64,000 bases of DNA from Cyclobacteriaceae bacterium (GTDB lineage: Bacteria > Bacteroidota > Bacteroidia > Cytophagales > Cyclobacteriaceae). The notes beneath the pieces were generated by a model. It was not told where the DNA came from. It saw only the letters and a list, made by a program, of their open reading frames with translations, and ran no database searches. A program made the translations under genes and the position numbers. Numbering within the stretch: position 1 is the stretch's first letter; every line of letters begins with the position of its first letter. Location of the stretch: the NCBI GenBank assembly GCA_019638355.1, contig JAHBTY010000001.1:1054001-1118000 (forward strand), read 5' to 3'. Positions 58,878-60,572 of the stretch are shown here, one piece after another.

Positions 58878-59807
58878 ATGAAAAGACTTAGCATTTTTTT
58901 ATTGGTTGTGGTGGCGTTTGCCTGTAAAGAAAATAATCCTGAACAAGCTTCAGCCGAAGCTGCGGAAGTATATTCGCTTTTAGGGTTAGAATATTATGCC
59001 CCAACCGCACCCAATGCAAAGCTGGATAGCAACCTGGCGATAGCCCAAAGAAATTTTGATGCAGACCCATCCGAAGAAAACTACATTTGGTTGGGCCGCA
59101 GGTTGGCGTATAAAGTAAAATACAACAAGGCTATTGATGTATTTACGAAAGGTATTGAGCAATACCCCAACTCGTACAAACTTTATCGGCATCGGGGGCA
59201 CCGGTATCTTTCGCAACGAAAGTTCGATGCTGCTATAGAAGATTTTACAAAAGCGGCTGAGTTAATGCCGGCTACGCCTTTGGAACTTGAACCTGATGGA
59301 GTTCCAAACAAAATCAACAAGCCATTATCTACTACACAATTTAATGTATGGTACCATTTAGGATTAGCCCATTACCTGAAAGGCGAATTTGATAAAGCCG
59401 AGCAAGCTTATTTGAAATGCATGGAAGTGAGCGATAACGATGATTTGATAACTGCCACAGTTGATTGGTTGTACATGACCTATCGCAGGCAAGGCAAAAC
59501 AGCTGAAGCTCAAAAACTATTGGAAAAAATTACCCCCAACATGACTATTGTTGAAAATGATTCTTACTTCAAACGTTTAAAACTTTATCAGAAAAAACTA
59601 CCTGTTGATTCGGTTTTAAATGTAAGTAACACCGCCAACGATGCGGACCTGGCGTTGGCTACACAAGGATATGGTGTGGGCAACTGGTATTTATACAATG
59701 GCGATACTGCACAGGCGATTGCTGTATTTGAACGCGTGGTGGGTGGCAAACATTTTTCAGCTTTTGGTTTTATTGCTGCCGAAGCAGAGTTGGCACGTTT
59801 AAGATAG
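58878..59807 (+). CDS. TPR-repeat lipoprotein
   Basis: A 309-residue lipoprotein with lipobox AFAC (Cys16) after a hydrophobic signal. TPR-like helices run from about 45 to 220, the clearest being NYIWLGRRLAYKVKYNKAIDVFTKGIEQYPNS and RHRGHRYLSQRKFDAAIEDFTKAAELMP. It likely acts as a scaffold in the periplasm. It is co-transcribed with the upstream amidohydrolase, 3 bases away. Its 3' end borders the tRNA-Arg repeat array. Confidence 0.85.
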   Translation: MKRLSIFLLVVVAFACKENNPEQASAEAAEVYSLLGLEYYAPTAPNAKLDSNLAIAQRNFDADPSEENYIWLGRRLAYKVKYNKAIDVFTKGIEQYPNSYKLYRHRGHRYLSQRKFDAAIEDFTKAAELMPATPLELEPDGVPNKINKPLSTTQFNVWYHLGLAHYLKGEFDKAEQAYLKCMEVSDNDDLITATVDWLYMTYRRQGKTAEAQKLLEKITPNMTIVENDSYFKRLKLYQKKLPVDSVLNVSNTANDADLALATQGYGVGNWYLYNGDTAQAIAVFERVVGGKHFSAFGFIAAEAELARLR

Positions 59808-59860
59808 CGGTTGGGCTAAAATCATTTTTATTTTAAATTTGCCACCGGCTTAAATTCGAA

Positions 59861-60486
59861 ATTAATCTCATAGTTCCCTATAATTTAACAGAGAACACAA
59901 TGGTCTCATAGTTCTCCCGATAATTATCGGGAGGATAGAATAGAAGTTTCCTGAGTTTTAAACCTTAGGTGTTAGAAAGTAGAATGAAAAAATATAACCG
60001 AAAAGAAAATTAATCTCATAGTTCTCTATAATTTATCGGAGAACACAATGGTCTCATAGTTCTCCCGATAATTATCGGGAGGATAGAATAGAAGTTTCCT
60101 GAGTTTTAAACCTTAGGTGTTAGAAAGTAGAATAAAAAAATATAACCAAAAAAATTAATCTCATAGTTCCCTATAATTTAACAGAGAACACAATGGTCTC
60201 ATAGTTCTCCCGATAATTATCGGGAGGATAGAATAGAAGTTTCCTGAGTTTTAAACCTTAAGTGTTAGAAAGTAGAATAAAAAAAATATAACCAAAAAAA
60301 TTAATCTCATAGTTCTCTATAATTTATCGGAGAACACAATGGTCTCATAGTTCTACCGATAATTATCGGGAGGATAGAATAGAAGTTTCCTGAGTTTTAA
60401 ACCTTAGGTGTTAGAAAGTAGAATAAAAAAAATATAACCAAAAAAATTAATATCATAGTTCCCTATAATTTAACAGAGAACACAAT
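59861..60486. repeat. Tandem array of promoter plus 5'-half tRNA-Arg units
   Basis: Units start with ATTAA at 59861, 60009, 60154, 60300 and 60446 (periods 148, 145, 146 and 146). Each of the first four has, 41 bases in, GGTCTCATAGTTC (the tRNA acceptor and D-stem), then a 20-bp palindrome CTCCCGATAATTATCGGGAG (one mismatch in unit 4), then GGATAGAATAGAAGTTTCCT as in the tRNA up to its anticodon, and finally an unrelated AT-rich tail. The fifth unit continues into the intact tRNA-Arg. Before each tRNA half lies TATAATTT within a weak inverted repeat GTTCYC/GAGAAC. Units 1, 3, 5 and units 2, 4 form two variants (ATTTAACAG versus ATTTATCGG). Confidence 0.9.
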
Positions 60487-60558
60487 GGTCTCATAGTTCA
60501 ACGGATAGAATAGAAGTTTCCTAAACTTTTGATCCCAGTTCGATTCTGGGTGAGACTA
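60487..60558 (+). tRNA. tRNA-Arg (anticodon CCU)
   Basis: The 72 bases fold as a cloverleaf: acceptor GGTCTCA with TGAGACT (60551-60557, one G-T pair), D-arm GTTC/GAAT, anticodon stem GAAGT/ACTTT with loop TTCCTAA (anticodon CCT at 60520-60522, reads AGG codons), T-arm CCCAG/CTGGG with loop TTCGATT, discriminator A60558. CCA is not encoded. It is the last unit of the tandem array and the only one with a 3' half. A T-run follows at about 60569. Confidence 0.92.
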
Positions 60559-60572
60559 CTAAAATCCCTTTT

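Follow-up and report, generated by a model that had tools for sequence, protein, structure and literature searches.

Small hairpins inserted in the loops of RNA genes are familiar from the double-hairpin elements of fungal mitochondria; we know of no case in which these are tied to displaced tRNA copies plus a GIY-YIG gene. A nuclease that acts on tRNA genes has been described in T-even phages: SegB, a free-standing GIY-YIG homing endonuclease, lies beside tRNA genes and cuts inside them (PMC13096335; PMC2988022). It also drives segmental amplification of tRNA-Tyr together with segB, for which recombination functions are required (PMC13096335). In the accessible text of the SegB paper, the cleavage motif is given as RAWTSGAAC and the survey covers phage and archaeal-virus proteins; the word 'T-loop' does not appear there (PMC13096335). 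On our own reading, RAWTSGAAC would correspond to the tRNA T-loop consensus on the opposite strand. REP sequences with TnpA_REP/RAYT, in turn, are short interspersed palindromes for which the accessible parts of the sources describe insertions in transposase genes (PMC6006769, PMC3733652); REP insertions in tnpA_REP genes have been described for a subclass abundant in Cyanobacteria and Bacteroidetes (PMC6006769).

Here we analyse a tandem array in a stretch of 64,000 nucleotides from a Cyclobacteriaceae bacterium (GCA_019638355.1, contig JAHBTY010000001.1, positions 1,054,001 to 1,118,000), referred to below as the window. We read the array, with a probability of about 0.55, as a nuclease-free relic of tRNA-targeting, SegB-like GIY-YIG homing elements that was amplified by recombination. 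Like segB, the small GIY-YIG genes at related Bacteroidota loci adjoin tRNA genes. They differ from the phage genes in being chromosomal, in forming clades that follow tRNA isotype, whereas no isotype preference is reported in the accessible text on SegB, and in being accompanied by hairpin-tagged displaced tRNA parts, which that text does not contain (PMC13096335). The window array differs further in having no nuclease gene. The palindromes described here differ from REP sequences in that they sit in the loops of tRNA copies and vary in sequence, and their link to Y1 genes seems weak; the array shares with the double-hairpin elements a hairpin in an RNA gene loop, those elements belonging to other, mitochondrial genomes.

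Anatomy of the tRNA-Arg(CCT) array

Tandem Repeats Finder places the array at window positions 59859-60499 (period 146, 4.4 copies, 95% matches, score 1171), with a second period of 291 bp, that of a dimer. A single intact tRNA-Arg(CCT) lies at 60487-60559 on the plus strand according to both ARAGORN and Rfam, and is the only Rfam match over the window. These results confirm the preliminary description of a tandem array of four broken units and one intact tRNA-Arg. The four near-identical units (145-148 bp, together 59860-60444, plus strand) span 59860-60007 (unit 1, 148 bp), 60008-60152 (unit 2, 145 bp), 60153-60298 (unit 3, 146 bp) and 60299-60444 (unit 4, 146 bp), followed by a partial last unit that leads into the intact tRNA. 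Each contains a broken tRNA copy made up of tRNA nt 1-13, an 18-nt palindrome, TCCCGATAATTATCGGGA, and tRNA nt 17-36. These displaced 5' pieces lie on the plus strand at 59902-59952 (hairpin 59915-59932), 60050-60100 (60063-60080), 60195-60245 (60208-60225) and 60341-60391 (60354-60371), and in all four the palindrome takes the place of three D-loop bases (AAC), with one mismatch in unit 4. They had been described as truncated 5' halves, which holds for the tRNA nucleotides that are present; they are not plain truncations, because a palindrome that this description did not mention stands in place of D-loop bases.

Ahead of each tagged piece, every unit carries a second, older and decayed 5' fragment (TCTCATAGTTC...GAGAACACAAT; by eye). 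The fragment directly 5' of the intact gene (sub-unit A, 60451-60486, plus strand; by eye and by comparison with the related genome G009) has plus-strand equivalents at 59866-59901, 60014-60049, 60159-60194 and 60305-60340. Two variants of the fragment alternate, one in units 1, 3 and 5 and the other in units 2 and 4, so at least one amplification step involved a dimer, in agreement with the 291-bp period. In the window, the decayed fragment adjoins the intact gene and the fresh tagged piece lies outside.

The sole promoter-like motif before the array, TAAATTTG at 59834-59841 on the plus strand, is also the only match to the pattern TANNTTTG in 59700-60490. The pattern, TAnnTTTG, is what we take to be the Bacteroidota-type -7 promoter motif. 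Because it occurs only upstream of unit 1, the units probably lie within the leader of the tRNA transcript; the earlier suggestion that they supply extra promoters was rejected on this position, and the array seems to add none.

No second copy of tRNA-Arg(CCT) was found, either among the 36 tRNAs detected in the genome, a set that may be incomplete, or by searching the genome with the whole tRNA plus its 3' flank, and a sequence search with the array unit found no match elsewhere in the genome. A plasmid search with the array gave five records, each matching the last part of the query alone, that is, the intact-tRNA region. Using tblastn, we found no GIY-YIG remnant in the array, and hence not the catalytic domain of SegB-like elements; the one good match was the intact tRNA itself, because the query runs into its tRNA. 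By eye, the flanking open reading frames resemble a TPR protein and an amidohydrolase, and no integrase-like frame is seen around the array that would place an integrase beside a duplicated tRNA end.

Comparison within the genus

A tRNA-Arg(CCT) query matched 40 of 40 same-genus genomes. We read 20 of these loci beside those of the window's own genome (G000, with contigs C1-C7; L-numbers denote loci) and of a separate genome of the genus, G009. A search of relatives for related arrays had been proposed, and G009 carries one unit at the same locus: one tagged and one decayed copy precede the same tRNA, between the same two genes. Of the 22 tRNA-Arg(CCT) loci read in the genus, 2 therefore have the array and the 20 further ones do not; five of the latter (L224, L226, L228, L233 and L235) show the end of the same upstream gene and then the intact tRNA without an array (by eye). 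Because these loci hold no counterpart, G000 and G009 most likely owe the array to a gain in their own lineage. This restricted distribution and the 95-100% identity among units fit the repeated partial duplication, recency and homogenization proposed at the outset. In 3 of the 20 loci (L220, L221 and L222), a GIY-YIG gene and hairpin-tagged tRNA copies precede the same tRNA-Arg(CCT), the nuclease stop codon being the TAG of the tRNA's GTAG in L220 and L222 (by eye). The palindrome of these same-genus nuclease elements is not that of the window array, and its position also differs (near nt 26 or 49-56). At L228 (genome G030), an apparent 3' tRNA-Arg piece with a different, longer palindrome in the T-loop lies downstream of the tRNA (by eye; not listed by the automatic scan).

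An assembly artefact is highly improbable on this evidence. The genome is in seven contigs and was judged from the assembly alone; against an artefact stand the unit between the same genes in G009, a separate genome, and similar arrays in the complete chromosome CP012155.1.

Displaced tRNA pieces in the genome and the phylum

Rfam gives 36 tRNA loci in the genome with 150 of 305 candidates scored, and ARAGORN also sees 36; given the partial scoring and the lack of tRNA-Ile in the list, the set may be incomplete. At ten of the 36, part of the same tRNA is found displaced and tagged with the hairpin or with a variant or decayed version of it, 7 of them matching CCCGATNNNNATCGGG and 3 being variant or decayed (by eye). 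Eight of these tRNAs have the piece upstream (Arg(CCT), Val, Ser(TGA), Phe, Leu(CAA), Leu(TAA), Gly(TCC) and Gly(GCC); Leu(CAA) by eye) and two downstream (Met and Cys). Upstream, the pieces are 5' ends and the hairpin lies in or around the D-loop; downstream, they are 3' ends and the hairpin lies in the T-loop. A hairpin (perfect, stem of 6 or more) lies at the internal end of 15 of 19 displaced blocks compared with 71 of 1,482 random positions, a control that slightly understates chance since each position was taken in one direction and blocks have up to two ends. At tRNA-Met, three 3' pieces lie beyond a terminator-like hairpin (by eye), and the tRNA-Cys piece lies before one. A further locus, at C5:63000-65000 (L178), combines an integrase-start-like frame (by eye), a 3' part of tRNA-Thr, a GIY-YIG gene and a palindrome-tagged 3' piece, along with a second, truncated GIY-YIG copy.

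We then searched a collection of 84,980 species genomes for the pattern TAGNNC-palindrome-GG, which matched 99 stretches; 80 loci (106 sites), mostly Bacteroidota by title, were analysed. Because a palindrome must be preceded by TAGNNC and followed by GG to match, the D-loop position in this set is preset by design; evidence on loop position that is not preset comes from the own genome and from the nuclease loci below. At 81 of 106 sites, a matching intact tRNA was present at the same locus, downstream and on the same strand in 81 of 81, and the pieces span at or near nt 1 to nt 13. Thirteen tRNA isotypes occur among the scan loci. The 25 sites without a matched tRNA include several near contig ends, some weaker matches and about eight that are seemingly non-tRNA (partly by eye). 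The preliminary description knew no family of this kind, and a literature search at the open-access, abstract level likewise found no report of such chromosomal Bacteroidota arrays; as a matter of sequence, however, the array belongs to a phylum-wide class.

The complete chromosome of UKL13-3 shows both forms at one tRNA-Asn gene. Upstream lie 11 nuclease-free 5' units of 80 bp each; downstream, 7 palindromes follow one another every 410 bp, within units that also hold a 3' tRNA part and a GIY-YIG gene. Upstream and downstream units share the palindrome core, and the locus has 8 GIY-YIG matches. The innermost upstream units equal the leader of the intact gene and the outer ones have diverged, so growth at this locus took place at the intact end. 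The order of decay in the window is the reverse.

GIY-YIG nuclease loci

A GIY-YIG gene is found at only 9 of the 80 palindrome loci. A nuclease profile built from seven tRNA-side proteins at palindrome loci matched 130 of 198 Bacteroidota genomes. We read 90 loci (30 returned, and 60 from the listed matches), a biased choice of high-scoring, hand-picked loci with several per genome. Pfam PF01541 was found in 3 of 3 proteins scanned from related loci, and the same three had no match in NCBIfam. A tRNA lies within 100 bp of the nuclease gene at 62 of the 90 loci, within 220 bp at 70 and within 500 bp at 78, on the nuclease strand in 78 of 78; we estimate that a random gene would show such proximity with a chance of about 1%, based on 36 tRNAs in 4.49 Mb. 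The adjoining tRNA is the putative target, so that at the related loci the nuclease would lie beside its target, which is not the case in the window.

The tRNA precedes the gene at 62 loci (3'-type) and follows it or overlaps its end at 16 (5'-type). A displaced 3' end beyond the gene is present at 47 of the 62 3'-type loci and was not found at the other 15; a displaced 5' end is present at 15 of the 16 5'-type loci. In total, 80 of 90 loci have displaced blocks. A hairpin marks the internal end of 159 of 228 blocks (66 of 90 loci) versus 185 of 3,600 control positions; for the first 30 loci alone the counts are 61 of 78 versus 91 of 1,512. No hairpin-tagged block was found at 24 of the 90 loci. 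The hairpins vary, with 102 distinct locus-hairpin entries, of which 54 are of the TCCCG/CCCGA type. At nine of nine tRNA-Asp loci with a displaced 3' tail, the hairpin begins after the same GGTCG, and its inner letters differ yet pair in eight, with a mismatch in one copy (by eye). The contiguous T-loop motif is missing in 32 of 46 displaced 3' copies and kept in 14, 13 of which show a hairpin further upstream (by eye).

For a tree of the nuclease, 101 loci were reduced to 90 rows by leaving out L047 and 10 loci without a tRNA within 660 bp; with 79 columns and 44 of 87 inner branches open, single clades are weak. The amino acid of the neighbouring tRNA changes 27 times on this tree, compared with a mean of 64.9 and a minimum of 58 in 200 shuffles, whereas host family (83 rows) changes 45 times against a shuffled mean of 56.7 and minimum of 51. 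In 46 of 83 cases, versus 7.6 expected, the closest relative from a different host family adjoins a tRNA of the same isotype, and such sharing of isotype across host families is a prediction of target-specific spread. The 5' or 3' position changes at least 14 times on the tree, and two 5'-type Met genes group with 3'-type Met genes with modest support. Nonsynonymous divergence is below synonymous divergence in 10 of 10 pairs (dN/dS of about 0.15 and 0.19 in two pairs with moderate dS), a pattern that shows the nuclease to be under constraint.

The palindrome outside tRNA pieces

CCCGATNNNNATCGGG occurs at 37 sites in the genome compared with 0 for the reversed control, and is, like REP sequences, a short dispersed palindrome. 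No constant GTAG or CGTC tag of REP type was seen at the hairpin foot in the flanks of the non-tRNA sites (by eye). One of the 37 sites lies in tmRNA, one in an RNase P RNA match (L143/L179, C6:123241-123256) and four between 5S and 23S rRNA; three are at the apices of other inverted repeats (by eye). Of 30 same-genus tmRNA loci compared, 29 could be aligned (L345 lacks the region). In G000 and G009 the palindrome (L123, C1:1234604-1234621) takes the place of three bases; the remaining 27 have three other bases there and no palindrome. A solo copy can therefore enter an RNA gene without tRNA duplication. At L177 (C4:119668-119683), the palindrome lies in frame and stop-free just before the HVH motif of a 228-codon frame that resembles a Y1 transposase by eye; a PF01797 search, which gave 2 Y1 transposase matches in the genome, does not list it.

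Other copies were noted at C4:44961-45363 (L130), where five of six palindromes form a tandem array of 62-64 bp units beside an apparent tRNA 3' end (by eye) that neither ARAGORN nor Rfam recognizes. At E up to 0.5, Rfam gave no identity for the palindrome array at C4:45097-45363 or for a site near the end of C7. At L119, L126, L129, L137 and L139, palindromes lie in or near intergenic runs resembling TTACTGGTTTCTGGTT (by eye).

Genomes with the palindrome differ little from others in Y1 transposase (40 of 49 versus 105 of 149, p 0.14) and more in GIY-YIG nuclease (45 of 49 versus 85 of 149, p 4e-6), in comparisons of hand-compiled counts made across the phylogeny as it stands, uncorrected for relatedness. 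A Y1 transposase was considered as the mover of the palindrome and found to be weakly associated with it.

Discussion

The array is neither a chance arrangement nor a one-off. Most likely it belongs, as a member without a nuclease gene, to a set of displaced, hairpin-tagged tRNA parts that spans the phylum and is tied to GIY-YIG genes following isotype. In Bacteroidota, a small GIY-YIG gene from a lineage kept largely to one isotype adjoins an intact tRNA on its 3' or 5' side, and across the gene lies a displaced part of that tRNA, usually with an extra hairpin in or near the T, anticodon or D loop. In the mechanism we favour, the nuclease may cut the tRNA gene, as phage SegB does, and repair would leave an intact tRNA and a displaced part whose loop has been replaced by the hairpin and no longer offers a target. 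Recombination between tRNA copies could then amplify or delete units. The window array would represent the 5' form after loss of the nuclease gene, expanded to four units within the tRNA-Arg(CCT) leader by unequal recombination in which dimers also took part.

For this reading as a relic of homing elements we count the pieces at 10 of 36 tRNAs in one genome, the geometry of the nuclease loci, the excess of hairpins at internal block ends over control positions, the isotype-following tree, the nuclease and tagged copies at 3 of 20 same-genus tRNA-Arg(CCT) loci, the UKL13-3 locus, the dN/dS values, the SegB motif on our T-loop reading of it and the loss of the T-loop motif. Against it we count the lack of a nuclease remnant in the array, the scarcity of GIY-YIG genes at palindrome loci, the different palindrome and site of the same-genus elements and the solo palindrome in tmRNA. 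The T-loops that are kept, the 3'-type loci without a displaced 3' end, the loci without a tagged block, the decay order opposite to UKL13-3 and the biased choice of the 90 loci weigh on the same side. A broader proposal, which we advance tentatively and hold at somewhat under even odds, is that Bacteroidota chromosomes host distinct tRNA-gene parasites, consisting of isotype-specific GIY-YIG nucleases and flanking displaced tRNA parts with a maintained TCC...GGA-type hairpin in one loop. The hairpin would be a working part, either destroying the target or serving as a recognition structure for the nuclease, and nuclease-free arrays would move or expand in trans.

The main rival sees in the palindrome a REP-like hairpin, mobile in its own right, that inserts into DNA encoding RNA loops, its link to the nuclease being secondary; an insertion into an essential tRNA would then survive only if partial duplication keeps an intact copy. 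We consider this unlikely on balance, with several observations in its favour. The best of these is the solo tmRNA copy, confined to G000 and G009, and it is joined by the dispersal over 37 sites, by the copies between 5S and 23S, within the RNase P RNA match and in the Y1-like frame (by eye), and by the REP insertions in tnpA_REP genes described, in the accessible text, for a subclass common in Cyanobacteria and Bacteroidetes (PMC6006769). One autonomous hairpin sits poorly with the variety of hairpins in displaced copies, however, and the palindrome tracks the nuclease more than Y1, with relatedness again uncorrected.

It is improbable that the units serve as a functional leader RNA whose tagged 5' halves govern how the downstream tRNA folds or is processed. 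They do lie between the promoter-like motif and the tRNA, and the predicted minimum free energy fold of unit 4 plus the tRNA, as also in G009, pairs the 5' strand of the fragment with the 3' end of the tRNA; but the other 20 same-genus loci manage without an array, one fragment in each unit is decayed, and the tRNA-Met 3' pieces lie past a terminator-like hairpin (by eye), unlike the tRNA-Cys piece, which precedes one. More doubtful still is ordinary attachment-site debris of an integrative element. Integrases mostly use tRNA 3' ends, whereas the pieces here include 5' ends, and the surroundings of the window array look free of integrase-like frames (by eye); the pairing of an integrase-start-like frame (by eye) with a tRNA-Thr 3' part and a nuclease at C5:63000-65000 is what speaks for it.

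If the reading as a relic of SegB-like homing elements is correct, it would widen the range of tRNA-directed homing nucleases, from phages to bacterial chromosomes on the scale of a phylum, with a matching gene in 130 of 198 sampled genomes, and would account for many puzzling tRNA fragments and small GIY-YIG genes. It would also provide a natural system in which a nuclease specializes on one tRNA gene without killing its host, and bears on the expansion of tRNA arrays and on phage defence by tRNA cutting. The recurrence across Bacteroidota of hairpin-tagged tRNA pieces, often by a small nuclease gene, points to a class of selfish DNA, little studied so far, that has tRNA genes as its habitat.
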